From Pomacea canaliculata (Eukaryota; Mollusca; Gastropoda; Architaenioglossa; Ampullariidae): 64,000 bases of DNA. The position numbers and the translations under genes are program-made. Numbering within the stretch: position 1 is the stretch's first letter; every line of letters begins with the position of its first letter. Where the stretch lies: NCBI RefSeq assembly GCF_003073045.1, contig NC_037592.1, forward strand, positions 13,696,384 to 13,760,383, written 5' to 3'. The notes under the pieces were generated by a model, which did not search any database, had not been told where the DNA came from, and saw only the letters and a program-made list of their open reading frames with translations. Shown piece by piece: positions 31,692 through 58,402 of this stretch.

Positions 31692-34600
31692 TTAATCTTC
31701 CACGTAAGGCTCCAGACTGTTTCTGGAAAAAGTTGTCATTTTTTTGTCTTGGAACCGAAGAAACTGGGCTGGCAGATCTTCCGTGGCGTCCTGAGTGGAG
31801 ACACAAAAGAACACCTGACATAATAAACATCAAGAAAGTCGCGACGTAGTACACGTTGCAGTTACACAGCCTGCAAAACTAGTGGGTCCCACTACCCCGC
31901 TAGTTTTCCAGGCTGGGTATCTCGTGATTTACTAATTATTACAGCGAAGACAAGAACTATGACTACAGGGATATCGTGAAGGGCGAGAGAACATGAACAT
32001 TTGCATACTTATTTTTCACCCTAGAACTTTGTTCATGGGGTCCAGCAAGAAACACTATGACGGGATTAAAAGTAATGTTATCATGCAAAAATTCCTGAAG
32101 ATCAAAAGAAACACAAACATATATTTATGCTCTTTTAAGACATTCCTTCCAGTCTGTAGAAGATGGAAATAAATGACCATGAACCTACCCTTTCAGAAAA
32201 GGTGAATTCCGAGCTCTCAAAACTGATGAGACCGTAGCCTGTGTTCGCGACCCCGAGGGTAACCTGAAGAAAAACGAAATCAATTGACATTCCTTATATG
32301 GATAGTTGTTTAAACATCAGCACCATCTTGTCACAGTTTGCTATTCAATTATGAAACAAAGACCATTACTGTCGTCAAAGCTGCTAGGGCAATAGTGAGT
32401 AGTCGAAATGGTCAGTGGGCCCCCGCCTCTCCTTGAAGGTAGAGTGTGGGGAGATCGGTGCAACTAAGGGTATATCACGGCATGGCAGCCACCCTGTCAA
32501 CAACTGCCACATTCAGAGAACGAACAGTGTGTCCTTGAAGGTAGACAGCAAGTTGATATACTACTCCTGTCTGAAGGACTAGACACAACATCGATGAGCG
32601 CTAGATAACACGCTGGGTGAGTGACGAGCAGTGAACAAAAAAAAAAAAATCACCATAAAGCGAGATAGCATTTAACAACAGGAAGTAATGATATCGTACT
32701 GATATGGCGTGTTTGATTTATTTGTTTATTTTGTTATAAGGTATGAAAAAATGTTTACTGATGTGAGTACGAGTGGGAGGAATCAGACAATAAACTGTTA
32801 GAGGCAGTGGACTAGCAGATAAAACGTGGAACCAAAGAAGGAAGAAGCAAGACAGTTTGGAGGTGGGGGATACCACACGCACGCGCACACACAGACACGA
32901 ATGCACGCTGGTACTGACAATATGAATCACAGTGTCATCTAAAGTCATCGACACAACTAACACACTGTTGTAGACTCTATTGTTACCACTACAGGCACCG
33001 AGACAAGGTAATTATTTTGCGTGCTCACATTTGAAACACAAGTCTCTTCGTCCAGTGTAATCTTGTTCTTCCTCTTGATCCTGTAATTACAGCACAAAGA
33101 ACATTTCAAGTGATTGGATATATACAGCAACAACGCTGTCTAGAAACAAGCAACATTTGTGATGTTTATCCACAAGCAAAATGAAAAAAACTTTTTTCTT
33201 TAAACTATGTTTTGTTGGCTTGTATGCCTATCGTAGCCTATACAAAGCGAACCTTGCATGTTTGCCCGGACACTGTCGAGCACATCAGGCATGTAGACTT
33301 AAATGTTTTCGTGCATTTACAATATTTACATATATTTGACGAGGAAAAAACAATGATTATATCGACATTTCATCGTGTGAAAAGTAAAATGGTTTAAGCT
33401 TTTGAACATACATGGACAGTGAGTCTTGTAGGAATAACGTGCGTGTTTATTGGAGTTCATACTTGTAGAGATCGTTTCTAAAGGTTGTTCTTACGAGAGA
33501 ACACGAAGACAATGTGCCTGCTACAGTACGTGATGTACTTTTCGCTCGTTTGAGTAGGTGAGACCCTACTACACCCACCTTTGTTTCCGCCGGACGCATA
33601 TGGCGGTGATGATTATGAAAAGAAAGAGGCCTGCTGCTGCGCCTGCGACTGAGGCGCCCAGTTTCTGTACATCAAGGTCTGAAAAAAAGACAAAGACGAA
33701 TTTTGGGGACAATAAACTAATGTTCGCTCTTTTCTTTACACCACACACACCGGTTCGCCAGCTCGATTCTCTAGTGACTTACCTTCTGTCCGTCTTTCTG
33801 AATTTTTTCCTGACGAGAGCTGCGTTGTTGTCTCCATGACGACAGAAGATGATCTGTTGAATGATGATAGCAGTGAGGAGAAAGAAGTTTTTTCACTGAC
33901 AGTAGTGGCCGACGACGAAACTGTTCCTGTTGTTGCAACAGCAGTAGATGCTGATGGTGCACTTGCTGTGACGGTTGTGTGGAGAGCTGGTTTTGATGGG
34001 GATGATGCTGTGGTCGTGGCAGAGGTAGTCTGTGTCGATGGTGTGCTTATTATGTGTGTTATACTGGACGGTGAAGATGATGGAGTCGGAGACAGGACTG
34101 GTTACGCGGCCAGTTACTGATGTAACTGTTTTCAATGTTGTAAGGAAAGATGAAGTGGATGGTGAAGGGGATGTTTTAGTGAGGGTTGATGATTCCGATG
34201 GTGTAGTTGTGTGAGTAGTAGACATGGATAGTGTGACCGCATGTGTCACATGGGGAGTTGATGCTGATTTAACCTCTGTATTTATTGTATGTATATTTGG
34301 CGTAGACTGCTTTGCTGCTGTTGCTGTAGCAGTACTAAACACAATTGATGTCTTTGGTTTTGCTGTTGCAGCTGTTGTCAACAAAGTTGATGTTGCTAAC
34401 TTAGTTGATGGAGCTGTAAAAACAGGTGACATTGTTGTCCTAGCTGCAATTGTTGTATAAAGACGTGTTGTAGGTGTTGTAAACACAGTTGATGTTTCAG
34501 GTTTAGGTGTAGTAGAGAAAGTTGATGTTGCTTTCGGTTTAGTTGTCTGGATAGTTGTTGCAGTTGTTGTTATGACAGTTGATTTCGGCTTAGCGGTTAC

Positions 34601-37484
34601 AATTGCTGTAGAAGCAGTTGATGCTGATTTAGTTGTAGGGACAGTTTTTGTTATGACAGTTGATGTGGGTTTAGTCGTTGCAATTGTTGTAGAAGCCGTT
34701 GATAATTTCGATCTAAATGTTGTAGGTGTTGTAAACACAGCTGATGTTCCTGATTTTTGTGTAGTAAGGGCAGCTGATGTTGATTTAGGTGTGGTTGTGT
34801 GGGTAGTTGTTGCAGTCGTTGTCAGGATAGTTGATGTCGGCTTAGTCGTTATAATTGTAGATGTTGTAAACACAGCTGATGTTCCTGATTTATGTGTAGT
34901 AACGACAGATGATGTTGACTTAGGTGGGGTTGTGTGTGTAGTTGTTGCAACCTTTGTCGGGACAGTTGATGTCGGTTTAGTCGTTACAATTGTTGCAGAA
35001 GTAGTTGACGTTTTGGGGGTCAGTGTTGCGGATGTTGTAAACACAACTGATGTTTCTGTTTTATGTGTAGTAAAGACAGCTGATGTTAATTTAGGTGTGA
35101 TTATGTTTGTAGTTGTTGCAGCCGTTGGCAGGACAGTTAATGTCGGCTTAGTTGTTACAATTGTAGATGTTCCTGTTTTATGTGTAGTAACGACAGCTAA
35201 TGTTGACTTAGGTGTGGTTGTGTGGGTAGTTGTTGCAGCCTTTGTCGGGACAGTTGATGTCGTCTTAGTCGTTGCAATTGTTGCAGAAGCAGTTGACGTT
35301 TTAGGACTTAGTGTTTTAGATGTTGTAAACACAACTGATGTTCCTGATTTATGTGTGGTAACGACAGATGATGTTGACTTACGTGGGGTTGTGTGGGTAG
35401 TTATTGCAGTTGATGTCGGTTTAGTTGTTATAATTGTAGGTGTTGTAAACACAACTGATGTTCTTGATTTATGTGTAGTAACGACAGATGATGTTGGCTT
35501 AGGTGTGGTTGTGTGGGTAGTTGTTGCAGCCTTTGTCGGGACAGCTGATGTCGGTTTAGTTGTTAGAATCGTAGGTGTTGTAAACACAGCTGATGTTCCT
35601 GATTTATGTGTAGTAAAGACAGCTGATGTTAATTTAGGTGTGATTATGTTTGTAGTTGTTGCAGCCGTTGGCAGGACAGTTAATGTCGGCTTAGTCGTTG
35701 CAATTGTTGCAAAAGCAGTTGATGTTTTAGGATTTAGTGTTTTAGGTGTTGTAAACACAACTGATGTTCCTGATTTATGTGTAGTAACTACAGATGATGT
35801 TGGCTTAGGTGGGGTTGTGTGGTTAGTTGTTGCAGCCGTTGTCTGGACAGTTGATGTCGGCTTAGTTGTTATAACTGTAGATGTTGTAAACACAGCTGAT
35901 GTTCCTGATTTATGTGTAGTAACGACAGGTAATGTTGACTTACGTGGGGTTGTGTGGGTAGTTGTTGCAGCTGTTGTCAGGACAGTTGATGTCGGTTTAG
36001 TCGTTGTAATAGTTGCAGAAGTAGTTGATGTTTTGGGGGTCAGTGTTGCGGGTGTTGTAAACACAACTGATGTTCCTGATTTATGTGTAGTAACGACAGC
36101 TGATGTTGACTTAGTTGGGGTTGTGTGGGTAGCTGTTGCAGCCGTTGTCGGGACAGTTGATGTCGGTTTAGTCGTTGCAATAGTTGCAGAAGTAGTTGAT
36201 GTTTTAGGATGTAATGTAGGTGTTGTAAGCACAACCGATGTTCCTGATATGTGTAGTAAAAGTAGCTGATGTTGATTTATGTGTAGTTGTAGGGATAGTT
36301 GTTGTGAGGACAGTTGATGTGGGTTTAGTCGTTGCAATCGTTGTAGAAACACTGGACCCTGCTGGTTCATGTGACGTAGCCTCAGTTGTAAGATGTGAGC
36401 CTTTGGTGCTGCTCCAAACACTATTCTGGTTTCCATTGCTGACTGTAAAGCGGTAAGAAACAGTAGGATGCATGGATTCAATACACAAGCTTCATGGTCT
36501 TGACAGCTGCAGGGCATCGGACCTTTCACACAAAGTGGCTCGCTACACAATTTTATTGTTTGGTTAGTCTTAGAGAAAAGGTGGCCCTAATTCTTCACCA
36601 TAGCAGAGTGGTGTCAGTGTAATAAAAACTGAACAGCTAGATGTGTTAATCGCATAAAGATATGTTAGCTTTAATAGCTTTAGTTTATAAAGAAAACTGA
36701 AGTGTCTGCTTCGACATAACTGATAAACAGGGAACAGTATGATCCACAACGAGATGATTCCGTTTTCAAGCGAACTAACTATTTATATCACAGTTATACT
36801 TTAGGGATCTGTTGTATGCAGCTTTACTGCGAGCATATGATTTAATTGTTAGCAACCCTTCATCGCGGAATCATGTTGTTAGTAACAGTACTATCATCAT
36901 CATCACATTGGTGGCAAGATGGTGGCCAAATGATGAGCAATAGTGTGACACAATATTATAAAACAAAGAAGCTTTAACAATATTAAGTAATCGTTTTTTT
37001 TAACAGAACAGATAAAATTACATTGACCATATGCTTTACTTTGTGATCTGTAGTTACTGAAGTAGCAATAAATTATTTTTAAATACGTGTCACTTAAATT
37101 ATGCATTACATAAATCATAAACCTCTGTAATTGCTTCGGCAAACGAAAAGTTGTAATTGAAGCTAAATATAGAGTGTTACCAACTTTTACTCATTAGGCT
37201 AGAATTGTCTGTAGGACATCAGTACAAACAGCATGTATACATCAGTTAGTCCAACCTATCTTAATATAGCTAAACCAACTGTTCATCAGTGGTAGGACCA
37301 CGATTCAGCGGTGGAAAAAAACAAAGAAAAGGAGGAAGATAAAGAGGGGAAAACAAATCCCAACAAAAAGCAGAAAGATTAGAGGAAGACCTTCAGAAGA
37401 ATTGATGGAAGTGGTCTTACCTGAACTCCCGAAAACATAAAAGTTAGCAATTAGTGCGATTGTTAGAAACATTAGACTCTCCAT
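31692..37484 (-). CDS. Mucin-like single-pass membrane protein, gene A of the cluster
   Basis: Exons (- strand order): 37484-37421, 36442-33783, 33678-33579, 33080-33029, 32263-32189, 31790-31692 (stop). Exon 1 gives a signal peptide (MESLMFLTIALIANFYVFGSSG). Exon 2 is a Thr/Ser ectodomain with about eleven copies of a ~56-aa unit (HKSGTSVVFTTP..., KTSTTSATIATTKPTSTV..., HTTPPKSTS). Exon 3 gives the transmembrane helix (AGLFLFIIITAI) and CVRRKQR. Exon 4 is a basic then acidic juxtamembrane piece (IKRKNKITLDEE). Exon 5 holds LGVANTGYGLISF, with a YGLI possible sorting motif. Exon 6 ends NSLEPYVED. The expected size is about 1,016 aa. Frame changes are needed near 36247 (two bases missing from a repeat copy) and near 34090, both in the repeat exon. 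No named family is recognised. Confidence 0.75.
34480..36300 (-). repeat. ~168-bp tandem repeats coding the gene A ectodomain
   Basis: About eleven imperfect copies of a unit near 168 bp (56 aa), some with an internal deletion of the KTSTTSAT segment. Each starts near a T-HKSGTS-V-FTT sequence. The copies are diverged enough to align without doubt, so the array is not very recent. Confidence 0.85.
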
Positions 37485-39037
37485 GATGCATGAAGAAAAC
37501 AAGTGCACGACTCTCACCTCGCCAACCCCCTAACATGCACAGGTTGAGGAACGATAAGAGAGCTCGGGTTGGGGTTTCCGGCTGGATAAGCTGTAGGTCA
37601 AAGGTCAAAAGGGTTAGCTGTGATAACTCCTGTGTGTCACTGGGGAAAAAAGTTTCAAAACTTCGCTTTTCCTGTTTTGAATTTTGAATTATAATTAAAC
37701 GACCCACGTCACCTCTGACTTGTAGCCACAGTCCATGCTGTTTTGAAAGGATTTCATGGGCTGACCGCTTTTAAAAGTGATTCAAATATTATTGCGTATA
37801 TTAGTAGGATATTTAATAGGCGATATATTTCAGTAGTCGTATGGCCTACAATTAATGATTCTCTTATTGTTTTGACTGATGCAGGCTGACAAAAGCTGAA
37901 CATTGTAGATGTCACCTGATCTTTATCGCCCATTTTTCTGTTATGTTCTTGTGTCCATCAAGGTCCCAGAACTTTGTCTGCAAGGAGGTTAATGGCAGAT
38001 GGAAATGTTTCAAGATCAAAGTTGATTTTCACTGAGCTCCAGATTGTCGAAAATAAACTGTAATTGTTCGAGAAACGAGACCACAGAAGAAGACTCTCGT
38101 GGCCTCCTAATGAATACTAGAATGGGCTTTTCATGGACACGGCCATCAGATCATTGTAGTTTCTTTTTGACCAAAAGCCGCCATAAAATACAGAGCAAAA
38201 ATTATTGTATCAGTCTAAACACATTATTGTCCTTTCATCTAAGATTTCTATTTCGTAGTTTGAAGGACTTGAATGTTGAGATATATCTACAACTTCCTGT
38301 GAGCCTTAGTTCTGTCGAGAGTTTAAAGTGACTATGATACAGTTCCCGATTCTATGAAAAAAACTGGATGACTCTTCTGTAGCTGTGTTTTAATTTGTCA
38401 TCTCTTCTATAAGGACTCCTTACACCAAGCGATGCGTGTGCAGAGTGTACGTTGATAATGTCGATATTAAGACAGTTTATCATCCAGGAAGCTGTTTAGT
38501 GGGGGCTGGCGAGGTTTGTTGTGAAACAGAAGGTCGCTTGTTCATGGTTTGATTAGGGCTGTGGATGGAATCAGTTTGTAGTTGCTATACGATGGACAAG
38601 AGTTCATTTCTGAATATAAAAGCTTGTAGTTTCTTAAGAGAGAGTGATGTCGCTTCGCCTAACTGGCTAGAGGGCGCTGCTGTCTGTCTTTTTTTGTTGT
38701 TGTTGTTGTTTTTTTTTTTTTTGTCTCATCTGACGTCACCTTTGTGCTGAAGTTGGTGTTGGTGAGTGTTTTTGCCATGCCTGCCATTGTACGTTTGGAA
38801 TCATCATCATCATCATCAATCATCAATCATCAATCATCATCAATCATCAATCATCATCAAATAATTAACTATTTATATCCGTTTCCAATTTATATGCCAT
38901 TAAACTGCAATCTCCGCGTTGGCCTGGATCATAAATACTTATACAAAAGTTCCAGTTGCCGAGGCTAGACTTTGTCACTTCGGGTAGCGCTGCTCACGGT
39001 GACAAACATCCAGGGATATAACCCTGGCATACAAAAG
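37485..39037. other. Spacer between genes A and B
   Basis: Holds the upstream region of A and the 3' UTR of B (- strand). A short AATCATC/ATC microsatellite lies at about 38803-38860 and a T-run near 38708-38721. No other coding signal seen. Confidence 0.5.
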
Positions 39038-41392
39038 TTACAGACTGGTCCTGTAAAAATTGTCCATGGATTGTTCGTCGTCATGACGCTGGACAGGTAC
39101 CTCTGCCTCGTTCTGAGGATCGACACAAACAAAAGAACACGATGTCAAACGTATTACAAAAGTCGTTATGTAACAGTTATTACAAAGCTTTCTCCTAGCA
39201 AAAATTAAACGACAATGGGGATTTTGCAAACTCACGTTTGAAACGACCCTGTCATCTTCCAGTGACATCTTGTTTCTCCTCCTGATCCTGCACATCACAA
39301 ATAACATCGTAGATGATCAAACAGAGAGAGTACCATAAAACTGTTCCTCAGGTAAGCTATTTGTTTGATCCCACGAAAGACAATACCTGTGCTGCGAATA
39401 AATGAGCGAGTGTAAATTGGTGAAAACCTGTTGAAATCCACTTACCTCTGTCTGCGCCGGAAGAAAAAGACAGTTGCGATAATAACGAGAAAGACGCCAC
39501 CTACTGCTCCTCCTACTATGCCTCCGAGCTGCTCCACTCCTGAAAGAGAAGAAGTTTTGTAATTCAACAGCCAGTACTCTCACTAATGCACGCGCGCACA
39601 CACACATACATAAAAGTTAGGACAGATTGTAGTGTGGAAATAATAATAAGATTGGTTACAACGGTTACAAAGAACCTTTAACCCTCTATTAGCTTGTAGG
39701 TAGGAGCATGGTTAATTGATATTTAACTGTCACACCACGATAAAAAAATAACCACAACTTTAGCGATCTATCCTCCAAAACTTCATCGAAAATTACTGAT
39801 GGAAAGAAGCAATAGCGAGCTGCAAGACATTACACACAGACGACAGTACCAAGGTAGGTGGAATGGAGACACTCACAGACAAGAATTAAGTTAAAGAACT
39901 AGTGGGACGGCAATTGTTTTGCTAACGAATGCGAATAATAATATTTCCTAAAATATGGATGATTACACATCTTTCGTTCTCGAGAGACAGACTTACAAAC
40001 ATTACTACCAATGGACAAACATGGGATGAATAAATAAAGAGACGAATAGATGAGTGGTCCGTCTTCTCGATTTCTGTCTCTTACCTTCTACCCATCTTTC
40101 TAAGCTTATTCTTGCCGACGACAGAGGTTTTGTCTCTGTTATTACAGTGACACGTTCTGTCGATGTCCACTGGGGTAATCTGTTGAATGGAGGAGGCAGT
40201 GACGAGAGCGACGTGGCTCTGGTGCTAGATGATGTCGACGATGAAACTGTTATCGTTGTTTTAAGAGAAGTTGATGCTGACAGTGCACGTGATTTGACAG
40301 TCAATGCTGATGGAGTAGAGGTTGTGGTCGTTGTGGATGTAGTTGGTGTCGAGGGTGTACTACTGACTGTGCGCGATATATCCGACACTGAGGAGGATGA
40401 CGTGGGTACTGGGGTGGCTAGACGTGCAGCTAGCGTTGATGTCAATGGTGAAAAGGATGTTTTTGTAAGGGTGGACGATGTCGATGGTACAGCTGTTGAG
40501 GTTGGTGTTGATGACGAAAAAACTGTGTATATTACATCGCGAACTAGTGTTGATGATGTAGTTGACTGTGAGGATTCCTCTGTTGCTGTTGTTGCTGTTT
40601 GACGGGTGGCGTATATCGACATGTGGACAGCGTGCTCGATGTAGGAGCATACGTGGGTGGTTGGGGAGTTGTAGCTGTAGTGGGATAAGGTCTTGGTGTT
40701 TCAGCTGTTGTTTCTGTGGCACGCATGGTGTGTTTCGGTGCTTGAAGACTTGATTCTGTACGGTTGGATGCTGTCGTTGTTGAATTTTCGCTCGTTATAA
40801 ATATTTCCTGATGGTGAACTGATGTTGTATGCGCATTTTGGTGAGAACCTGATGCTGCTTGTGTTTTCTGATGAGAATCTGGTGGTCTGTCCATGTTGTG
40901 ATGAGAATCTGTGGGTCTGTCCATGTTGTGATGATAATCTGTGGGTCTGTCCATGTCATGATGATAATCCGTGGTCTGTCCATGTTGTGATGAGAATCTG
41001 TGGGTCTGTCCATGTTGTGATGAGAATCTGGTGGTCTGTCCATGTCATGATGATAATCCGGTGGTCTGTCCATGTTGTGATGAGAATCTGTGGGTCTGTC
41101 CATGTCATGATGAGAATCTGGTGGTCTGTCCATGTCATGATGAGAATCCGGTGGTCTGTCCATGTCATGATGAGAATCCGGTTGTCTATCCATGTTTTGA
41201 CGAGAATCGAGTGGTCTGTCCATGCTCCAACGAGAATCGGATGGTCTGTCCATGTTCTGGTAAGAGCTTGGTCTGGCCATGTCACCTGAATCACCCATTA
41301 CGCAGCAAATTGAAATAAGTATAACATTCTGCCAGTTTGAACTCATTTGTTTTAGCCTAGATTTATCTACTGTAAAAAGAAATCAAACACCC

Positions 41393-41435
<43 letters not shown>

Positions 41436-41674
41436 CACGTTAATTACACGTCAACTGTTAGACCAGTCTGTATTTACTACACCCCGCCTCCACTCAGTGG
41501 CCAACAAGACATTCCCCTGAATAATAATTCAACAACAATAACGAGCACAACCTCAATAATCCAAGAGAAAGATTCGGAGAGGACAAGTAAAGTAGAAGTG
41601 GTAGACGTGATCTTACCTGAACTCCCGAGAAAATGAACAAACAACACCAGTTCTAGAAAAATCAAGCTACCCAT
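39038..41674 (-). CDS. Mucin-like single-pass membrane protein, gene B of the cluster
   Basis: Exons (- strand order): 41674-41617, 41369-40085, 39539-39446, 39287-39236, 39112-39038 (stop). Exon 1 is a signal peptide (MGSLIFLELVLFVHFLGSSG). Exon 2 begins VDKSRLKQMSSNWQN, then runs through 12-13 copies of a 10-aa unit (MDRPPDSHHD), then a Ser/Thr-rich part ending near LSSARISLERWVE. Exon 3 is the transmembrane helix (GGVFLVIIATVFFF) with RRRQR. Exon 4 is IRRRNKMSLEDDRVVSN. Exon 5 gives the tail NEAEVPVQRHDDEQSMDNFY and the C-terminus RTSL. It lacks the GYGL exon of A and C. Expected size about 520 aa. The reading frame changes near 40970 (a G missing in one repeat copy) and near 40620. All splice phases agree with A and C. 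Confidence 0.75.
40875..41265 (-). repeat. 30-bp tandem repeat coding MDRPPDSHHD units in gene B
   Basis: Twelve to thirteen copies of a 30-bp unit, visible on + as (T/A)CTGTCCATG(T/C)-TGATGA-AAT. The coded unit is MDRP-(P/T/S)-D-(S/Y)-(H/R)-(H/Q)-(D/N). Inner copies are nearly identical, pointing to recent turnover. Confidence 0.9.
41392..41435. repeat. (AAC)n microsatellite in gene B intron 1
   Basis: About 14 copies of AAC between the signal exon and the repeat exon of gene B. Confidence 0.9.
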
Positions 41675-44600
41675 GACATATGAAGAAAGTTCCAACCTCT
41701 GAAATCACATCACCTGCACAGTTCACACCTCCAGGGAAAACTGAGGACGAGTGGTACATCGGCTGGATAAACAGGACTTTACACGAGGTTACAAACACGC
41801 GCTAAGACTGAGATAACACCCAGGTGTCCTTCTCCAAAGGTTTTTTTTTTTTTAAATAAAACGACTCTCACCTGTTTTGATTAAAAAGTTTGATACCACT
41901 GTATGTGAATGTCAGCACAACGAAAGCATTGTTTGGTCCATTTGTGTCAACACCACGCCACAATTGTGAACCCGGGGTAGATAGTCCACTCCCAGAACAC
42001 TTTATTTGTGTTTCACAACAAAAAGTTAACCAAACATGACAATGTGAATGGATTAATTTCATCGAAAGCTCTTAATACTACTAATGACAATAAATAATCG
42101 TACTTCGTCCACGAGATGTAAGATTTGGAACATCAGGGATAAAGCAAGAATGTACGAAGCAAGATCCAAGTCATTTCAGAGATCAAGGTTTATATATTTG
42201 GGTTTTTTTTATATCTGGGTTTTGGTAAATAAAATCTTCAGCTTCATCACAGAAGTAGGTAAGATGTCAAGAGGACACCTCATTAACAGTTACTCGAGGT
42301 TTTCTCATTGGCTGCGGCATTCAATGACGTGGAAAAGTGGAATTTGAGTTAGTCTACAAATGCTTGCCCTGTCCTCACAAAATATTTTATAATCACACGA
42401 GAGGCACTTGACTTTCAGTAAGCTGCTAGCCTATTTCTTGCTGTGTTGTTTAGGGATATTTGCGCGCTATTTGGCATCAAAATTATAAGAAAAATAAATA
42501 AATAAATAAAAGCTGAGGAACGGAAAAGCTTGAACCATACCTTGTTGCTATATGGAAAAAATAGTAAACTACATCAGGGAATATCTTAATGGCTACATGC
42601 TTTTCATGTTTTATAACTTCTTAAAGTGGAAAATTAAATACACAGAAATAAATATGGAATGTAATTTGATAATGATAATGAGAATGAAGTAATTAGTTTC
42701 AAAAACAATAAATTTGAGCAATTAGAAAAATAAACAGCACTATTTCTATTATTTTATTTATTATTATACATTTTATATATTTTATTATAGTAAATCGGTA
42801 ACATAACTGCACGTTATATAAGAGTGAAGCACAGATTGTAAGAAGTATTTGCAAACGCATACTAACGAATAAAAGGCAGACAAGGGTGTTATCAAAGTTC
42901 CAATGATACCCATGTTTTGACTGAGCTACATCTTTCCCTCTCTCTCACTTTCTCTGCCCCTCTCTCTCTCCTTCCTTGCTACAACCTTTATACATTGAAC
43001 AGGACAAACCTCGAGAGGGTTACTCACCCAGGTGCCAACACCTACCCAACACCAGAGGGCGGTAAGTGCCGATTGACGTCAGCCTATGACGAGCGCACTT
43101 CGATACCCTGGTATGACATGACCTTTAACCCAGGTTGGGTCATGAAGTTCTATTTCCGTTGTTATCATACTGTTATGTATGAAGTGTTAACTGATGACAA
43201 AAGATGATGCAGTGGACATGCAGTGGTGAAGCTGCTGCACTCGAGATAGCATTGCTCTGCCCACCCGCAAAGCCACCCCGCTGTGAAAGTACACATTTAT
43301 GTTTAGTCTCAAAATACACGTGTACTTAATTACTACAGCTTTTTACAACTTTGTGAACGGCGCTAACTTGTGAGGAAGTGCAGCCATTTTTTTTTGATGG
43401 CATAATCTCAGGTAATGTAGTGATTACCGGAAGTTGTTGTAAAGTGCGCTTGCTGTAGCGGGGTAGTGCAATAAATGTTTATACATTAATACTGAAATGT
43501 ACCCCGTTCCCCCACTAGGAACCACGCTGTAGCTAAGAGGCTATGGCCAGTGTCACGAGGATCAGGACAAATGTACGAGTGAGGGTTTGCTATGAGGCAA
43601 CCTCTTTACAGAGAACAGGATCGTTGAGTGAAGATACAGACAGTCATGTGATAATTCTTAAAAAAAAAAAACAAACTAATTTCACTAGAGAGCTCTTAAA
43701 ATTGCACGCTTAGATCTTTCGATTATACAGACTGTCTGTCAGCCCACACGTTTCATGTCGAGGAAGTGGATGTGAGAGTTGATAAGACAAAGGAACACAG
43801 CTCTCGGTTTATCCTTTCATCGCTTTAACTGTTAGCAATATGCGTTATTACCCTTTGTTACAGATGGTTACACAGGGATAACAGCCCGCACAGTAATGGT
43901 GGCTGAGTCCACGTCTGGCAGATACTATGAAGAGTTTTGTGTTGTTTTATTTTGTGAATTGTTTAGTTTATGGGTATTCTGGAATATACGGCTCAGGAAG
44001 ACAAAGTCTGACCCCAAGTTGAGTTGTGAGGTCGCTCTTCCCAGAGACAGGACATTAGTGTATACAGTCTGTCCCCAAGTTGACTTCAGCTGTGTTTTGT
44101 GTGGTTGTTTTTTTGCGATTTAAGATAAGTTGTGAGGGTGGATGATATATATATAGATTTATGGAACATTAGTCATCAGTGACTGTGTATACACTGAAAG
44201 CAGTGTTGTGCCGAACCTTGCATTTGTTATTTCTTGAGCTAAACACCAAGAAAGGAACTTTCTTTCAGGACTGAGTTTAGAATTAGAGATCATAATAAAT
44301 AATGATAATATGTCATAGTAGTAAGGATTAATTGATGTATGTTTACTATGAAATTATTTTAACATTTTTGTGTAGTTTTTAAATTATTAAATATATTCGG
44401 GCCTACAAAAGAGGTAGAGTTGTTCTGAGTAGAAAAGAACACGCAAATGTCCAGGCGTTTGTGGGAATGTGAGTGACGGTGACAACCTTCTTATCTTTCA
44501 GTCGCCAATTGTCTTTGTGTGTGTGTGTGTGTGTGTGTGCTTGCGTGTGCGTGTGTGTGTGTGTAGGAGGATGAAACATTATTTCATGTTGATTATCTTT

Positions 44601-44982: not shown

Positions 44983-45035
<53 letters not shown>

Positions 45036-45342
45036 GATGTATGTTGGAGATGTACATTCCTAGATCTCCAGTCGTAAGAATGCACAGAAGAATGAACTTC
45101 CCAGCTGGCGTTCATCGCCTTATCAAGAAGGTCCACATGAACTGTCTGCACAGTGACAGCAGGTCTGTCCATCTTCCCAAGAAGTTTCCATTTGACGAAG
45201 ACTGGACTTGGTCACACCAGGCCACGCTGCTCACATCCATCACATGCGAAGATCGACTTGCAGGAACATCTACTGTGAAACAAACTTACACATCGCTCAT
45301 GCAATACTCGTCTTTGAGCTGTCTTCGTCTTGGAACCGAACA
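41675..45342. other. Spacer between genes B and C
   Basis: No conserved exon recognised. The 3' end is the 3' UTR of gene C. A (GT)n stretch lies at 44516-44564 and a (TCTCTG)n-(TC)n-(AC)n compound repeat at about 44983-45035. An open frame on + at about 42990-43207 is richer in G+C than its surroundings (CRLTSAYDERTSIPWYDMTF) but matches nothing I know. Confidence 0.5.
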
Positions 45343-48300
45343 CTACAGGAAGGAAAGGTCCGCGGCGTCCTGAGTGAAGACACAGAGGAGCGAACATGAC
45401 ATGATAACTATTACAACAATATCTTAGATATTTAGAGATGTTTACTACTGTAAGCACACGACCACCAAGAGCACACACTGCTAGCATGCCTCACTTCAAG
45501 AATAGCACGAAGAGTAAAAGAGGTACATAAATAAGGACATGAATAATTCCCTCACACCTAGACTGAATATGAACGAACATCAAACGAGGCCCCGTATGAA
45601 AAACTGAAAAATGTCAATGTTTAAATAAAAAAATACAGCAGAAAAATTTCTAAAATCCCATCAAAAGAGTTATTGCTGATATGTAATCCTGATCCAACCG
45701 AGACTGGGCATTACAAGAATTGTTTTTTTTTAAAATATGTTTCGTCGTCGTCGTTAAAATCAAATGAAACACTGATACTCTGTGATTTGTAAGATGTAGC
45801 TCGCAGTCTGTAGAACTTAAATAGAAATAAAGTAATATAATACCTGTTTAAAAATAGTCTGTTTCCAATCATGAAGAGCGGTGAGCCCGTAGCCAACATT
45901 CACAATCCCGAGGGATTGCTAGGGAAAGCAAGCGAAAAAAACAATATGACCGGTAATATACACACAGTATTATCTAACATTATCGTACACTTTGTCACAT
46001 CTTCTTAATTAAAACATAAGTGACAAGGGTCACACGATTGTCGCCAACTGTAGGCGGTGTTTCTATTGACAGGTTGCGATTGTACAGGATAGAGAGAAGG
46101 ACGATGAGATGGTGTTGTCAGAAGAAGGACTTTGCTGGATAACCTTTCTGTCAGACGATAGATAACGACTTGTTGTACCACACAACACCTAGTCATAACG
46201 AGGCAACCAAACTCATGTGACCTGGGTTTATCGTCCACGTTATCGCCATTATCGCCACAAACTACAGATCTACATTGTAGATGTCACCAACATTAGCATC
46301 AATCCTGGACATAAAGCTATCATTAAAAAAATAACAAGATGGATTGTATATAGATAAATAGTTCAATTAACGACTGAAATTAAACCTGTAGATAACAGGT
46401 CTACTTTAAACGAATAGAAATAAATTGGCTGCAGTTTGGAGGTGTAGGTAATCTCTCTCTCGCTCTCTCTCTCACACACACACACACACAAACAAACACA
46501 AACACATGCATACCAATCTGATCGCCTGCTTGCGTTGTTGGTGTGATCATCACCAGACCAAACACACATTACCACATCACATCACAAATAAAAATAATAA
46601 AAAATGATAATTTTGCAGACTCACATTCTGTTCATTGTCATCGTCCAGTAGGAACTTGCGAGATCTTCTGATTCTGTATGTATAACATAAATAATGGAAA
46701 CACACCTTTCAGGTGATCAGACAGACAAAAATAAAACATTACGCACATTAGAATACGCAAATACCCCAACCTGTTGGATCAGGTACATCAAAATCTACCC
46801 AAAAATGCTCACGAATATAACTGCATACAGAATATTTTTGTCATTTGGTAAGCAAAAAGATTAGAAGTGTTTTGTTGTGCAAACAACAGGCAGGGTTTCC
46901 TTGACAACGGGAAATCAGTCCTTGTTTGAGGGAGTGAACATTTGCCCTTGTTAAAGCAAAGTAAAAGTAAAGCGATGACAGTTGTTTGAGACTGTCGGGA
47001 ACTAATAGTCGTGTGGCGAGTTGATGTTGATGGATATATGTTGTGGTCGTGGTAGAGGCAGTCTGTGTCGATGGCAGCTGCTAGGATGAGTTGATGTTGA
47101 TGCAGGTTTTGATGTAAGGGTAAGCTGATGTCGATGAAGAAATGATGTTTTTCGACTATGATATTCATGCAACTGTTGATAGTGCAGCTGATGAGTCCGC
47201 AGTCGAGTAGTCCTGTGAGTGTTTAAGTAGGTAAACACTTGTAGAAGTAAACAAACCTGCGTTTGCGCAGAAAGTAGATGAGAGCTGCGATAATGACGAG
47301 GCCGAGGACACCTACTGTTACCCCGACAACGGCCCTTAGCTCTCCACCTCTGAAAGAGACAAAGTTTGAAATGTACTGATGTTCTCTCAATATCTTTTGT
47401 CCTCTCTCCTTCCTCTATTGGCCGACACACGCACACACATGATAGCATGCACGCACACACGCCAGCACACACAGAATTACACACACACAGCGTTATGTCA
47501 CCTTGGTAATGTCATGATGTGGCCATGTGATGCCAGAGCAGTAAATACCAATAAAACAAGACTAAATGTTTAACCATCTACCTGTCCGATCTTAGTGACT
47601 TACCTTCTGTACTTCTTTCTGACAAGAGCGGCGCTGCTGTCTGAGCTGGTGTTTTTACCTTCGGTGTTGTAATTCTTGCATTTACTCCTCGCCTTGTTGT
47701 TTTAGTTGTTGGTCTTGTAGTTCCTCTTGTTCTTGCTGCTTTGTGTGTTGTTGGTCTAGTTGTTTTAGTTGTTGGTCTTGCAGTTACTCTTGTTCTTGTT
47801 GTTTTTTGAGTTGTTGGTCTTGTTGTTTTGGTTGTTCGTCTTGAAGTTACTCTTGGTCTTGTTGTTTTAGTAGTTCTTCTAGTAGTTACTCTTGTTGTTT
47901 TTTGAGTTGTTGGTCTTGTTGTTTTCGTTGTTCTTCTTGTAGTTACTCTTGTTGATTTTTGAGTTGTTGGTCTTGTTGTTTTTGATGTTCTTCTTATAGT
48001 TACTCTTGTTGATTTTTGAGTTGTTGGTCTTGTTGTTTTGGTTGTGCGTCTTGAAGTTACTCTTGGTCTTGTTGTTTTAGTAGTTCTTCTAGTAGTTACT
48101 CTTGTTCTTGTTGTTTTTTGAGTTGTTGGTCTTGTTGTATTGGTTGTTGGTCTTGAAGTTACTCTTGGTCTTGTTGATTTCGTAGTTGGTCTCGTAGTTA
48201 CTCTTGTTCTTGTTGTTTTTTGAGTTGTTAGTTTTGTTGTTTTAGTTGTTGTTCTTGCACTTACTCTTGGTCTTGTTGTTTTAGCTGTAGTTATGCTTTG

Positions 48301-51300
48301 GACAGTTTTTGTTGTTGATTTAAGTGTTGTATTTGTTTTGGCTGTTGGTCTTGCACTTACTCTGGGTAATGTTGTCTTAGTTATTGCTCTTGTAGTTACT
48401 CCTATTCTTGTTGTTCTGGTTGTTGGTCTTGTTGTTACTCCTAGTCTTGTTGTTTTAGCTGTAGTTATGCTTTGGACAGTTTTTGTTGTTGGTTTAAGTG
48501 TTGTATTTGTTTTGGCTGTTGGTCTTGCACTTACTCTGGGTAATGTTGTCTTAGTTATTGCTCTTGTAGTTACTCCTATTCTTGTTGTTCTGGTTGTTGG
48601 TCTTGTTGTTACTCCTAGTCTTGTTGTTTTAGCTGTAGTTATGCTTTGGACAGTTTTTGTTGTTGGTTTAAGTGTTGCATTTGTTTTGGTTGTTGGTCTT
48701 GTAGTTATTCCTAGTCTTGTTGTTCTGGTTGTTGGTCTTGTTGTTACACCTAGCCTTGTTGTTCTGGTTGATGGTCTTGTAGTTACTCCTAATCTTGTTG
48801 TTCTGGTTGTTGGTCTTGTTATTACACCTAGTCTCGTTGTTCTGGTTGTTGGTCTTGTTGTTACTCCTAATCTTGTTGTTCTGGTTGTTGGTCTTGTAGT
48901 TACTCCTAATCTTGTTGTTCTGGTTGTTGGTCTTGTAGTTACTCCTAGTCTCGTTGTTCTGGTTGTTGGTCTTGTTGTTACTCCTAGTCTTGTTGTTTTA
49001 GCTGTAGTTATGCTTTGGACAGTTTTTGTTGTTGGTTTAAGTGTTGCATTTGTTTTGGTTGTTGGTCTTGTAGTTATTCCTAGTCTTGTTGTTTTGGTTG
49101 TTGGTCTTGTAGTTATTCCAAGTCTCGTTGTTTTGGTTGTTGGTCTTGTAGTTATTCCAAGTCTTGTTGTTCTGATTGTTGGTCTTGTTGTTACACCTAG
49201 TCTAGTTGTTCTGGTCGTTGGTCTTGTTGTTACTCCTAGTCTTGTTGTTCTGGTTGTTGGTTTTGTAGTTATTCCCAGTCTAGTTGTTCTGGTTGTTGGT
49301 CTTGTTGTTACTCCTAGTCTTGTTGTTCTGGTTGTTGGTCTTGTAGTTATTCCAAGTCTTGTTGTTCTGGTTGTTGGTCTTGTAGTTATTCCAAGTCTTG
49401 TTGTTCTGGTTGTTGGTCTTGTAGTAATTCCAAGTCTCGTTGTTTTGGTTGTTGGTCTTGTAGTTATTCCAAGTCTTGTTGTTCTGGTTGTTGGTCTTGT
49501 TGTTATTCCAAGTCTTGTTGTTCTGGTTGTTGGTCTTGTAGTTATTCCAAGTCTTGTTGTTCTGGTTGTTGGTCTTGTTGTTACTCTTATTCTTGTTGTT
49601 CTGGTTGTTGGTCTTGTAGTTATTCCCAGTCTAGTTGTTCTGGTTGTTGGTCTTGTTGTTACTCCTAGTCTCGTTGTTCTGATTGTTGGTCTTGTTGTTA
49701 CTCCTAGTCTTGTTGTTTTAGCTGTAGTTATTCTTTGGACAGTTTTTGTTGTTGGTTTAAGTGTTGCATTTGCTTTGGTTGTTTGTCTTGTAGTTATTCC
49801 TAGTCTTGTTGTTCTGGTTGTTGGTCTTGTTGTTACACCTAGTCTCGTTGTTCTGGTTGTTGGTCTTGTAGTTACTCCTATTCTTGTTGTTTTGGTTGTA
49901 GTTTTTGTAGTTACACCTAGTCTAGTTGTTCTGGTTGTTGGTCTTGTAGTTACTCCTAGTCTTGTTGTTCTGGTTGTTGGTCTTGTTGTTATTCCAAGTC
50001 TTGTTGTTCTGGTTGTTGGTCTTGTAGTTATTCCAAGTCTTGTTGTTCTGGTTGTTGGTCTTGTTGTTATTCCAAGTCTTGTTGTTCTGGTTGTTGGTCT
50101 TGTAGTTATTCCAAGTCTTGTTGTTCTGGTTGTTGGTCTTGTAGTAATTCCAAGTCTCGTTGTTTTGGTTGTTGGTCTTGTTGTTACACCTAGTCTTGTT
50201 GTTTTAGCTGTAGTTATTCTTTGGACAGTTTTTGTTGTTGGTTTAAGTGTTGCATTTGCTTTGGTTGTTGGTCTTGTAGTTATTCCTAGTCTTGTTGTTC
50301 TGGTTGTTGGTCTCGTAGTTACACCTAGTCTCGTTGTTCTGGTTGTTGGTCTTGTAGTTACTCCTATTCTTGTTGTTTTGGTTGTTGGTTTTGTAGTTAC
50401 TCCTATTCTTGTTGTTTTGGTTGTAGTTTTTGTAGTTACACCTAGTCTAGTTGTTCTGGTTGTTGGTCTTGTTGTTACACCTAGTCTCGTTGTTCTGGTT
50501 GTTGGTCTTGTTGTTACTCCTAGTCTTGTTGTTTTAGCTGTAGTTATTCTTTGGACAGTTTTTGTTGTTGGTTTAAGTGTTGCATTTGCTTTGGTTGTTG
50601 GTCTTGTAGTTACTCCTATTCTTGTTGTTTTGGTTGTAGTTTTTGTAGTTACACCTAGTCTAGTTGTTCTGGTTGCTGGTCTTGTTGTTACTCCTATTCT
50701 TGTTGTTCTGGTTGTTGGTCTTGTTGTTACTCCTATTCTTGTTGTTTTAGTTGTTGGTCTTGTAGTTACTCCTAGTCTTGTTGTTTTAGTTGTTGGTCTT
50801 GTAGTTATTCCTCGCCATGTTGTCTTTGTTGTTTGACTTGTAGCTATTCCTCGTCTTGTTGTTTTGGTTGTTGGTCTTGTAGTTACTCCTAGTCTTGATG
50901 GTTTAGCTGTAGTTGTTCTATAGACAGTAGCTGTTGCCTGTTTAAGTGTTGCATTTGTTCTGTGAGTTGTTTTTGTAGTTGTAGTAAGTATTCTTCTAAG
51001 GGCAGCTGTTGTTTGTTTGTTGGATGTTGTCGTTTGTGAAAAGACTCTTGCTGGTGCACCGCGCCTTGGTCTAACCACTGAGTAGATGTCGCTGGAGTTG
51101 GTGCCTTGGTTGATGTCAGCCGCAGACTCTGGGTTTTTTATACTTCTCAAAAAAGCTTGGAGGGTTAAAGTCCCTGTGTTGGCTGTAAAAGAGGAAGATA
51201 CAATAATCGGACATCCATGATCTTTAACATTTCTGGGCATGGAATTTTGTGCATGAAAAGTGATGTTATTTTAATTAACGATTGCAACTTGTTTACCCCG

Positions 51301-51858
51301 AGTCAAAAGTAAAAAAGCGATCAGTTAGAAAAAAGTTACGTTTGACAGACTGAGCATGATTCCTACTGCCGTCGATACACACAAACCCACAAATCAGGTG
51401 ATTGAGATGTAAAGGGGGATCACATTCATACGTCACCGGTTGGCACATCGCAATAGTCACATTAGAACGGACAAAGAAATGACAGCAAAAGCATGGTAAC
51501 TTAAGACACATCCAAATATCTGGAAAAGAAAAAAATCATTGACAGCACGAGGTCATGCTTGGCAATTAGAGGCAGCCTCGTCCTCGTTTGTTTACCTGAA
51601 GTGTTGCTGATGACATCGTAGCAGACCTGAACCACCTACTAGGCAAGATGTTGTAACTACTTCGGCGTCAAACTAACTGGCTTCAATCAAGAAGAAGAAG
51701 CAAGAGAAGAAGGGAATGAAGCAATAGAACATCAAAACTGAGCTGCAGGAAACAAACCAGAGGATCTATAGAAGGATGGTGGAGTTGGTCTTACCTGAAC
51801 TCCCGAGAAGACACAGACTAGCCAACAATGTAAACACTAGAAAAATCGAACCCTCCAT
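45343..51858 (-). CDS. Giant Thr/Arg-repeat membrane protein, gene C of the cluster (1,294 aa)
   Basis: Exons (- strand order): 51858-51795, 51182-47604, 47347-47257, 46673-46625, 45918-45844, 45369-45343 (stop). All phases agree and the total is 3,885 nt, so the gene is intact. Exon 1 is a signal peptide (MEGSIFLVFTLLASLCLLGSSG). The 3,579-nt exon 2 starts ANTGTLTLQAFLRS and then runs through dozens of 13-aa units (TTRLGITTRPTTR) with about eight spacer units carrying an N-glycosylation sequon (NATLKPTTKTVQ or NTTLK...). It ends with longer TTK/TTR stretches and APLLSERSTE. Exon 3 is the transmembrane helix (VLGLVIIAALIYF) and LRKRR. Exon 4 is IRRSRKFLLDDDNEQN. Exon 5 is QSLGIVNVGYGLTAL..., and exon 6 only DAADLSFL. 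The ectodomain is about half Thr and about a quarter Arg/Lys, far more basic than ordinary mucins. Function not known; a surface or mucus-binding role is only a guess. Confidence 0.85.
46452..46505. repeat. (TC)n-(AC)n microsatellite in gene C intron
   Basis: A run of CTCTCT followed by ACACAC and AAACACA units, in the intron between the juxtamembrane exon and the GYGL exon of C. Confidence 0.8.
46930..47200 (-). pseudogene. Relic of an A-like mucin exon inside a gene C intron
   Basis: The intron between the transmembrane and juxtamembrane exons of C contains, on +, TGTGGTCGTGGTAGAGGCAG followed by TCTGTGTCGATGG. Gene A's mucin exon has nearly the same words in the same order at about 34011-34043, followed in both by GTTGATG-rich sequence. 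No open frame links it to C. It looks like a leftover from duplication or exchange between family members. Confidence 0.5.
47690..50950 (-). repeat. 39-bp tandem repeats with higher-order spacers in gene C
   Basis: Dozens of 39-bp copies coding TTRLG(I/V)TTRPTT(R/K). Every several copies a spacer of about 25 aa (ANATLKPTTKTVQRITTAK) breaks the run, making a higher-order repeat. Central copies are almost identical, as expected from recent unequal exchange. The end nearest the membrane (47690-48290) has looser TTK-TR units. Confidence 0.92.
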
Positions 51859-54340: not shown

Positions 54341-54443
54341 ATGACACTGTTAAAAAAATATTTTCTGGAGATCATCCTTCTGATCAACGGGATCGTGAAT
54401 ACACTTGAGTAAGTACACGAATCTGAAGCGTTTAAAAGTGACC

Positions 54444-54474
<31 letters not shown>

Positions 54475-54481
54475 CAAAACA

Positions 54482-54517
<36 letters not shown>

Positions 54518-57500
54518 CGGTTACGGGTGCTTGGATAATTTTCACGACAAATCTTCAGTTTTACCTTGTCACTTGTTACGCTATGCACACAAAAGATTAA
54601 AAGGGTTAAATAAATAACAAATAACTATTGCTTTTCATGTCCTGTTATTTTGACCACGAGTACGGGTACTGTCGTTTTTAGTGATCAAGACTAGTGCTTG
54701 CTTTTTATTTTTGTTACAGACAGCAAGGTGACGACAAAAGGTACTCACTTCCACAACAAAGTAATTGTCCTTTTTATCTCGTCGTATCTCCTAGAATATT
54801 CTGTTCTACTGTCGAAATTACTAAAAAGATAATAAAAAAGGGTGACTAATTAAATTACTAACATATTATGAAGAATTACAATTGGGTTATATTTGACAAA
54901 CACACACACGTTCACTCCCTCTCATGCACTTTTATACGTATAGTTATATTAGATAGATAAATGACATGACATTCCACAGACACCATGATAAACATAATGT
55001 AGATGGTTTGTCATCTTGTGTTTCTACAGCCGATTGGGAGGCCGCCTCGTGTCCCTTCAATTCTAGTTTCTGCTCCTACACACAACTCCCTCCGAGCTGG
55101 GACGCCAACAACTGGACCATAAGCAATGGTAAGTAGACGCTGTCAACAAACATTATTATTAAACAACAAACTTTGATTCCCAGGCGCATGGCGATGTCGT
55201 GAACTCATATTTCTACCTAAAGAAATGTTTCCCAACACCTCACGTTTAGTAGTCTGAAGTATTTTACCATTTCCAGAAGAATGATTATGGATAGACGAGA
55301 AAAAGACAAATTAAGAGATACTGTGATTGATCAATTTACTGAGAACATACGACAGAAAACATACTAACCATAAGAAGTGTGGATTTTTAATATCATACAT
55401 ACTGAACCAGATTTTAGTCATTCTAACAGAGAGAGGGGGAGAGAAAGAAACCAGATTTCGAATTTTCTTGACCCCAAGTCATTGAGTGGCTTGTTTGTGA
55501 CTTCCGAAGGTCATGCCACGGTGCAAAGTGGACTAGAGAATTTCGGGGCGACTTCCATCATACAATCGCCCCGCCTGACCTCTGACCTCCCAGCATGCCT
55601 AGTGTACCTGTACACGCAGTCCATGCCCTCCCAGCTCACCGTGCGCGTGACTGACGGCGTGGGAGGCTACTGCGTCCTCATCAAAGAGAGTAACCTCCAG
55701 GTGGATGAGTTCATTGAGCAGAAGATCGACCTGCCCCAAGCTAATGGAAGGGTAAATACGTTGTTTTGGTTTAATTGTATCTCGAGATCCAAAGGAAAGC
55801 ATTCACCTACATTTGAGGAAATACAATCTGTCGCTGAGTTTTACTCAGGGATTAGAAAAAAAATCGCACCCCACTGGTTCTATAAGATAATTACTGTTTA
55901 ATGACTTCTGATATTTAGATTGGTAAAAGATCAATCGAAGAAAAAGAATAAAAATCAATATTGTTAGAAAAAGTAGTAGTGGTAACTTACTATTCAGTGG
56001 TAGTAGAAGAAGAGAAAAAAGAAGAGTTAACAAGAAGCTAAATTTGTGTAAATTATTCACAGGAAATCGTCACTGAAACAATTTGGTAGAATAAAGTCGT
56101 GATTTTGAGAAGAGAATAGTAGCTGACTGTCCCCACTGTCTGACAGATTGCCTTTGTAGCCAAGTCCGGTGCCAACTCGCACGACGGCAACATAACGCTT
56201 AAGAACGTGAAGCTGACGTCAGGCCCGTGCGCAGGCGCACACGCGAACACAAGCACACCTGGCCCCATCCAGCCCCCAGAATGTGTCAACTTTACCACAG
56301 CTACAACAACAACAACAGCGACAACAAGAACAACAGCAACAACAACAGCAGCAACAACAACAACGACAATGACGACGACAGGAACAAGGACGTCTACAGC
56401 GTCAACAACTACTACTACGTCTCCTACAGCTCGCTCCACAGAGTCGACAACTGCCGCTGTGTCTCCTACAGCTAGCTACAAAGGTAAGAAGACTGGAACA
56501 AGAACAAACTAAAAACAAATGTAATTATTGTCTTCTGTTCAGTTTTTTTTTTCAGCGAACAGCATAACGTATTTAAGCATACTCCGCTCACACTACATTT
56601 TACAAATGTGAGAGGAAACAGAGATTTCAGAAAATGAAAGGATGGGGTGGGGGCAAGAACTCAGAAGAACTGCCAGAGGTAGAGAACTCAGTAGAACAAC
56701 TTGGTCTAGAATGTTCTGATACCAGGTAGGTGATAGCGTTTCCAGCTACAACAGTTGTAGCTCTGATGACAAATCTCAGTTAATAATATTTTCAATGAGC
56801 AGAGCAAGGCATCAATATTCAAACAGAAATTGACTTTATTTTCTCTTGAGTATTTGTTATAAATAATAACCTTCTGGAGTGATTTGCTTTTCTTTCAAGG
56901 CGAGGCGAAGGACAGCTCTCGGAACACCGCTGTCATCATTGCGTGTGTCATCGTATTGGTTATCATCCTCATCGTCGTGGGAGTTCTCCTTTGGTGGAAG
57001 ACGAAGAACGGACACAAAAGGTACAGTGTTATCCGACATGAAATGGACTGACAGTAAAAGGAATAATTATTTTATGGGTAAGATAAGCAGAGCACACCTT
57101 CTAACATCTAGCTCTTCCTTAGAGGAAAAGTATGATAAAATATAAAACCACAACTCCATAGGTGGGACAGGACGAGAAGAGAACGGGATGGCTAAAGGAC
57201 AAAGGTAGTGCCTTTTTTACTCACACTCATTATATAAGTATATATAAATCATATCAAAGATATATGTATATATCACATATGTCGTGTAGTAGCTACCTGT
57301 CATTTATACCCAACAAACACCTACTATGTTAGTCCATTGCGCGGCATTACCTAGGCTTGTCAACGGTGAATGAGAGAGTAAAAGAAAAGAGATAGGTATG
57401 GGAAACACACACACACACACACAGAGAATGCGGATGATGATGATGATGAAAAGAAGACTAGGATATGTTTTAATTCTCTGAAATGTCATGTAAGTCTTAG

Positions 57501-58402
57501 AAATGTAAAGACAGTCCTCAAAATATAAACAAATCAGCACATCATGTCACACATTATACTTTATTTCATTTTCATATCAACACTACATCCGCCCTCCACA
57601 TACAAACACACATGTAATATGTGTATATTGCATGTAAACTATATACAAACGTTTGAATGGCATTTGTTTTCTTAGCTCCTGATTAACAGTGGCTAATTTT
57701 AAGCTAAAGGTAAGCCGTTTCTTTCGATGCAGAGATGTGCATCCACTAGAAGATAAGCAGGCAGCGGATCCTCCTGGTCTGGAACCTGCGATCAACAATC
57801 CGCCTCACAGTCACTTCATGGTGACAGACACAGGTATGTCACTTCTCCACTTTGTAAACGGACCTGAACTTCCATAGATGCCGGTTTTTTTTTCCAAACC
57901 AAATGAGTAAATGAGTAGCGTTCAGTCTGTTATTTTTTTTGTTTGTGTGTGTGTGTGGAGTGTATGGGGTGGGGGATGAGTGGGTATATGTACGCGCGGG
58001 GGAGAGAGCGAGGCTGTGTGCACCACTGTGCTATGACTCAGTAACCCCATCAGTTAAAAGGGTTAACAGCTTCCAAGCTGTCATGTATACCTGGTTTTTG
58101 TTTTGGTAGAACTAAGAGAAAAAAAGCAAAAAATCAAAACTGATTTTTACACACTGTGATTTATCAATGACACAGGTCAAAGGTGGGCAGACAAATCGTC
58201 AACAGATGTAACCTCTACCGATGAACTGGTCGCAAACGAACAGCCTACGGATACAACTGGAAATGTTTCTCCGAACGGACACGACCAAGACCAGATCGTC
58301 GACATTGATGAGACTTTGGATTTTGATTACGATACAAATGATGATCCCTATGATTTCGAATATATGAATACAGCCCCTTTTTCAGGGTTATTAAATAGAT
58401 AA
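54341..58402 (+). CDS. MAM-domain single-pass membrane protein with Thr stretch, gene D of the cluster
   Basis: Exons: 54341-54408, 54724-54740, 55030-55128, about 55432-55751, 56147-56483, 56900-57020, 57733-57833, 58176-58402 (stop). The total of 1,290 nt gives 429 aa in frame. The signal peptide is MTLLKKYFLEIILLINGIVN. Next comes a MAM-type domain: SCPFNSSFCSY...W, GLFVTSEG, SPRLTSDLPACLVYLYTQS, LTVRV, INLP-like IDLPQANGRIAFVAKSG, then GNITLKNVKLTSGPC. The same exon then codes a Thr stretch. The transmembrane helix is AVIIACVIVLVIILIVVGVL, followed by WWKTKNGHKR. The tail has PLEDKQ, many acidic residues and three close tyrosines (DYDTNDDPYDFEYMNTAPF), including YMNT. The transmembrane exon starts in phase 1 and ends in phase 2 as in A, B and C, so D probably shares their origin. 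The acceptor of exon 4 is the least sure junction. Confidence 0.82.
54443..54518. repeat. (AAAAC)n then (AAC)n microsatellite in gene D intron 1
   Basis: About eight AAAAC units run straight into about eleven AAC units, suggesting that one repeat grew out of the other. Confidence 0.9.
57396..57445. repeat. (AC)n and (GAT)n microsatellites in a gene D intron
   Basis: A run of AC at about 57402-57422 followed closely by GATGATGATGATGAT. They lie in the intron between the transmembrane exon and the next tail exon. Confidence 0.8.

Follow-up and report, generated by a model that had tools for sequence, protein, structure and literature searches.

A candidate trio of mucin-type membrane genes in the apple snail Pomacea canaliculata, with one anchor module beneath divergent outer repeats

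Does a gene cluster of the apple snail Pomacea canaliculata keep one membrane module while the outer parts of its proteins are rebuilt? A preliminary description of four neighbouring genes, here A to D, in a stretch of 64,000 nucleotides (the window, C3:13696384-13760383) had read the locus in this way, with all four in one family of presumably many copies. As developed below, the common anchor and tail beneath divergent, turning-over outer repeats stand, and the membership of D and the many copies find no support. We consider it rather probable that A, B and C form a local trio of single-pass mucin-type membrane genes with a retained anchor and an exon 2 that undergoes expansion and turnover. 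For all four genes, exons were located on the genomic sequence alone and then assembled into models by a single script; the searched genome comprised 440,159,624 bases in 24 contigs. The outer limits first given for the cluster, 31692 and 58402, equal the ends of our models. A, B and C lie side by side on the minus strand (31692-51858), with the following exons.

37421..37484, minus strand, A exon 1, signal peptide, leaving phase 1 (similar to B and C)
33783..36442, minus strand, A exon 2, Thr-rich repeats and stalk, two frame changes (repeat scan, gene model)
33579..33678, minus strand, A transmembrane exon (gene model, DNA match, shuffle test)
33029..33080, minus strand, A juxtamembrane exon, RIKRKNK...LDEE (gene model, DNA match)
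32189..32263, minus strand, A LGVANTGYG exon, common to C (0/10000 shuffles)
31692..31790, minus strand, A last exon with stop (gene model, DNA match)
41617..41674, minus strand, B exon 1, signal peptide (gene model)
40085..41369, minus strand, B exon 2, MDRPPDSHHD repeats then Thr/Ser stalk, two frame changes (repeat scan, gene model)
39446..39539, minus strand, B transmembrane exon (gene model, DNA match)
39236..39287, minus strand, B juxtamembrane exon, RIRRRNK...LEDD (gene model, DNA match)
39038..39112, minus strand, B last exon, RTSL then stop (gene model, DNA match)
51795..51858, minus strand, C exon 1, signal peptide (gene model)
47604..51182, minus strand, C exon 2, open 3579-bp Thr/Arg repeat exon (repeat scan, gene model)
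47257..47347, minus strand, C transmembrane exon, whose frame requires the second AG of CAGAG (gene model, DNA match)
46625..46673, minus strand, C juxtamembrane exon, RIRRSRKFLLDDD (gene model, DNA match)
45844..45918, minus strand, C LGIVNVGYG exon (gene model, shuffle test)
45343..45369, minus strand, C last exon, LSFL then stop (gene model, DNA match)

The models thus hold six exons in A, five in B and six in C, with eight in D, and the parts that had been reported as common to A, B and C are all there. The signal exon ends in CGGGAGTTCAG|GTAAG at three places, and the transmembrane exon, the RI[RK]R...L-acid-acid exon and the similar 3' end were found in each gene, the match between A and C running on past the C stop (31743-31826 with 45324-45407, 72%). 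DNA matches among the three fall at the transmembrane, juxtamembrane, signal and last exons. At the protein level, the transmembrane segment plus tail scored 124 (A-B), 108 (A-C) and 94 (B-C), and no score was reached in 2000 shuffles, whose maxima were 51, 54 and 58; the tail alone was reached in 0/2000, 0/2000 and 1/2000 shuffles for the same pairs. On alignment, A, B and C are tandem paralogues, and the identities to A over transmembrane segment and tail (B 42%, C 35%) make the duplications look old. The LGxxNxGYG exon is common to A and C (0/10000 shuffles) and absent from the B model. Signal peptides were similar between A and B and between A and C (0/5000 shuffles each) and less so between B and C (167/5000); against D, the scores of A, B and C were reached in 507, 79 and 3832 of 5000 shuffles, so that this test does not separate D from B.

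Just inside the membrane, 8 of 11 residues are Lys or Arg in each of A, B and C. CD43, PSGL-1 and ICAM-2, which are sialomucins and adhesion proteins, likewise carry a polybasic stretch just inside the membrane, with ERM-binding tails; the likeness lies in the position and charge of the stretch, and a PDB search up to E 10 with the 25-aa juxtamembrane segment of B gave no match. The C-termini read RTSL in B, LSFL in C and YVED in A. Those of B and C fit [ST]-x-L, the class I PDZ pattern, which is short and prone to chance matches. The polybasic stretch, together with the C-terminal [ST]-x-hydrophobic ends of B and C, could anchor the proteins at the cortical cytoskeleton in the manner of ERM and PDZ ligands.

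The expectation of a many-copy family was not borne out: three copies were found, with no further accepted copy in the flanks or in genome searches of limited sensitivity. Neither the 110 kb on the left nor the 120 kb on the right gave an A-C module with tblastn (E 0.01 and 0.001) or with short-exon blastn (E 0.01). Across the genome, the transmembrane plus juxtamembrane query of B gave six matches (B twice, A and three generic ones), the A module recovered A twice and B, the C module recovered C twice and one generic match, and the exon DNA of B found B itself only. No protein query recovered both of its sisters, so that remote relatives could be missed. Three candidates (L029, L031 and L032) were rejected as generic transmembrane matches without convincing signature exons alongside; L029 was the best of them, at a genome E of 0.008, and L031 is the site of the one extra match of the C module. 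Searching the whole cluster against the flanks with blastn returned intergenic, intron and low-complexity matches only, which we read as dispersed repeats. Within the cluster, an interval near the 3' part of A (31867-31922) has an 86-87% match on contig C6, and an intergenic one (43913-44110) matches L005:3089-3301 on the reverse strand at 78% over 213 bp; both are probably dispersed repeats.

The outer parts differ as strongly as the anchors agree. Of the repeat units first proposed, the 10-aa unit of B (30 bp, 13.0 copies) and the 13-aa unit of C (39 bp, 59 copies) were recovered, the latter with a longer spacer unit at intervals among the 39-bp units, and the single 56-aa unit of A gave way to mixed periods of 117, 120, 135 and 171 bp and longer. 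Thr, Ser and Pro make up a fraction of 0.50 in C (1192 aa) and 0.52 in A (an open stretch of 849 aa). In the first 190-aa stretch of B the fraction is 0.24, so that the B repeat is hardly mucin-like. A long Pro/Thr/Ser repeat ectodomain is thus present in A and C and not in the B repeats. The ectodomain of C (1192 aa) holds 492 Thr, 204 Arg and 72 Lys with 2 Asp, 3 Glu and no Cys, for a computed pI of about 12, and the first 136 aa of B exon 2 hold 26 Asp and 14 His. If expressed at the cell surface, A and C would extend from it as a long and strongly basic brush, probably O-glycosylated, which might serve as a barrier, and B would carry an Asp/His-rich repeat outside the cell. The Lysostaphin_N match to C (70.5 bits for the first 296 aa; 218.4 bits in nine stretches for the whole exon; cut-off 60) was set aside, despite its score above cut-off, as in our judgement one short-period repeat matching another; that model, as we take it, is itself composed of 13-residue repeats.

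Such compositions invite another explanation, namely that A, B and C sit on the cell surface of an epithelium that mineralises or secretes (mantle, foot or albumen gland), where their repeats bind ions or polyanions. The Asp/His-rich start of B exon 2 and the Arg/Thr-rich repeat of C fit this proposal, which draws on composition only; secreted shell-matrix proteins differ from A, B and C in the membrane anchoring of the latter, and we hold it to be unlikely.

For the preferred reading, a trio of membrane genes with expanding outer exons, the growth of the arrays is informative. All ungapped self-matches are offset by a multiple of three (A 49/49, B 8/8, C 795/795, scored over exon positions 241-2340 in A and 3-410 in B, between the frame changes, and over the whole exon frame in C), as expected of arrays grown while coding. 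Mismatches in the A array are distributed over the codon positions as 0.207, 0.155 and 0.156, and this lack of a third-position excess gives no sign of purifying selection on the A repeat protein; the corresponding values in B, from 8 pairs only, are 0.136, 0.138 and 0.211, and those in C were left aside because they combine different registers. Ordinary repeat expansion, too, would be expected to make the repeats of tandem membrane mucins differ.

Are all three genes intact? The proposal that exon 2 of A and of B runs in one open frame failed, each exon changing frame twice (in A near 36250 and 34100; in B near 40970 and somewhere from about 40650 to 40560). Both exons begin in the frame of the signal exon and finish in the one that the membrane exon requires. 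The change near 34100 and that between about 40650 and 40560 lie outside the listed tandem arrays, and the other two inside. No frame change was found in the 3.6-kb exon 2 of C, nor in D. C alone of the trio has an uninterrupted frame throughout (1294 aa), in which hydropathy marks a hydrophobic N-terminal stretch and a single transmembrane segment; a signal peptide and a single membrane segment in one open frame are present in C and, as assembled, not in A or B. The interruptions of A and B reflect either assembly error or real decay and, as assembled, only C is demonstrably a possible protein. In the membrane exon of C (47257-47349), the first AG of CAGAG leads to a stop after a few codons, and its alternative use would yield a secreted form.

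On this evidence C may be the only working gene, with A and B decaying pseudogenes and the variety of ectodomains partly a product of lost constraint instead of an exchange system. The two frame changes in each exon 2, set against none in C or D, speak for such decay, as do the two changes outside the arrays, where short-read polishing should have worked. Nevertheless, the signal, membrane and tail exons of A and B are all retained and bordered by GT-AG, the tail exons lack early stops and the frame is correct at both ends of exon 2. Moreover, between its changes the Thr-rich frame of A runs on without a stop for hundreds of codons, so that any break would be recent, and a PacBio assembly with single-base correction by Pilon, as the available text of PMC6129957 describes it, may leave indels in repeats. 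We regard decay of A and B as possible, though doubtful.

Turnover of exon 2 in the favoured trio can be followed beside the membrane. The middle exons had been called unrelated; their repeats do differ, but next to the membrane A and B have a common stalk of about 110 aa (0/2000 shuffles; best DNA piece E 1.6e-18). A remnant of the same stalk lies in C, between its transmembrane and juxtamembrane exons and with same-frame stops nearby.

47008..47074, minus strand, decayed A/B-type stalk piece in the C intron after the transmembrane exon (57/68 identical to A, 44/57 to B)

The piece scores 67.7 bits; comparing the A stalk with ten other stretches of the window gave no more than 26.9, and 200 codon shuffles no more than 30.0. 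Its presence in the C intron means that stalk DNA moved or was copied within the cluster. It spans only 68 bp, yet is nearer to A (57/68) than the coding transmembrane exon of C is (48/91). That an unconstrained-looking piece is nearer to A than this exon suggests copying from an A-like neighbour after the genes had diverged. At the end of exon 2, C matches A only across the donor, over 30 bases (19 of exon, 11 of intron; 28/30 identical), and B at 73.5% over 34. Three-way counts of informative sites for a mosaic C gave p 0.031 over six segments and 0.023 for a contrast chosen post hoc; by itself, the segment at the donor end (6, 5 and 4 sites) has no preference for A. We have dropped the idea that C is clearly mosaic between A and B, the site counts being weak and the donor end without preference; these counts are suggestive, no more. 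Other Pfam matches to stalk or transmembrane segments (RIFIN, EVI2A, ErbB-type and similar) were all below cut-off and rejected.

Gene D had been placed in the same family through a shared frame of exons, and its tail turned out to be unrelated.

54341..58402, plus strand, D, eight exons, 404 aa: N-terminal hydrophobic stretch, MAM domain, Thr-rich stretch, transmembrane segment, acidic tail (gene model, Pfam)

Of 2000 shuffles each, 1730 reached the score of its transmembrane segment plus tail against A, 415 that against B and 353 that against C, and D as a fourth member was rejected. Its N-terminal hydrophobic stretch is below the hydropathy threshold. The MAM domain (PF00629) scores 27.2 bits for the 142-aa region alone, just over the cut-off of 26.4, and 25.5, below it, for the whole protein; the MAM region has no sequence match in the PDB up to E 1. 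Downstream, nine further copies of the second MAM exon of D follow between 66.5 and 175 kb (window numbering continued), together with five long tail exons, each with 5 or 6 YxxV/I/L motifs such as YSQV, YSQI, YNAL and YDHL (L003-L006 and L009-L016, C3:13760384-13880383, plus strand). These tails come after one or two MAM copies, so that the array would hold a minimum of five receptor genes, each carrying a single MAM domain or a pair. It may be a signalling receptor family, and its tails look suited to SH2-type signalling. D is 21-30% identical to the copies that its MAM region matches, and none of the three Tyr of its tail is in a YxxV/I/L motif; judged by these matches, D is the nearest, diverged member at the edge of a separate tandem MAM array. 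A segment at 62563-62637 matches the third MAM exon of the downstream array (52% over 25 aa) and is perhaps a decayed copy.

With this array alongside, the locus could be a gastropod recognition cluster of hyperdiverse surface proteins, comparable with the GRC/PTC1 and PTC2 clusters of Biomphalaria glabrata, with the MAM array as the signalling part. According to the available text of PMC7494358, PTC2 is a cluster of single-pass membrane genes with paralogues under 50% identical. The GRC/PTC clusters are known for allelic hyperdiversity and resistance. A, B and C, likewise single-pass genes of a gastropod cluster with B and C below that identity to A, and the tyrosine motifs in the tails of the adjoining array agree with this picture. 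Nevertheless, there are three copies only, the tails of A, B and C lack such a tyrosine motif array, and no mucin repeats are described for those clusters in the same text. We give this comparison, drawn by analogy, a low probability. Equally improbable in our view is a bolder version of turnover, in which exon 2 is a swappable cassette exchanged through its phase-1 junctions by unequal recombination, C the product of a swap that brought in the Thr/Arg exon and stranded the old stalk behind the membrane exon, and trio and MAM array together a fast-evolving surface-defence complex of apple snails.

The reading that we prefer, of a kept anchor with rebuilt repeats, has a closer parallel in human. 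In the part of PMC9578598 available, the MUC3 cluster is described as tandem genes whose N- and C-terminal parts are conserved around a giant, faster-diverging repeat exon 2. Like MUC3A, MUC3B, MUC12 and MUC17 at 7q22, A, B and C are arranged in tandem with a large repeat exon 2 between N-terminal and membrane/tail exons; unlike them, their repeats are Thr-rich with Lys, Asp/His or Thr/Arg, and no SEA domain was found. Pfam gave none in A, B and C from the transmembrane exon onward, in the stalks of A (107 aa) and B (144 aa), or in the last 214 aa, the first 296 aa and the whole exon 2 (1192 aa) of C, the repeat array covered being that of C. With no SEA domain in the scanned parts, we do not file the trio as a member of the MUC3 cluster and, with tails of B and C at the identities to A given above, the resemblance is a likeness and no claim of homology. 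Glycosylation repeats arise anew in existing genes (Pajic et al. 2022, as cited in the available text of the review PMC12776774); the recurrent origin described there concerns mammals and proline-rich precursors, compared with paralogues in one snail cluster here. The kind of locus is thus already known from the human MUC3 cluster and from gastropod single-pass clusters, and a literature search combining transmembrane mucin, mollusc, tandem repeat and gene cluster found nothing.

We propose that tandem duplication of one five- or six-exon gene would have given A, B and C. The anchor, consisting of the membrane segment, the polybasic inner stretch and a short acidic tail, would have stayed recognisable while exon 2, set between phase-1 junctions, changed quickly by tandem repeat expansion. 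In C, the older stalk was probably displaced, leaving a fragment in the next intron. If true, the snail would follow the rule of the human membrane-mucin cluster, anchor kept and outer repeat rebuilt, with three repeat chemistries and a fossil piece of an older stalk in one cluster, and would offer a small locus for testing the turnover of cell-coat proteins by comparing apple-snail genomes.

A viral-contig scan gave 207 pattern matches, none confirmed. Elsewhere in the window, an 818-bp element with perfect 20-bp terminal inverted repeats lies at 58796-59613, which we take to be perhaps a pogo/Tigger-like MITE, and two short elements at 12342-12653 and 26200-26372 are bounded by 22-bp inverted repeats that are 91% and 86% complementary. 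On the minus strand at 8628-10138 lies a ferritin gene (Pfam E 2.1e-40; matches to PDB ferritins).
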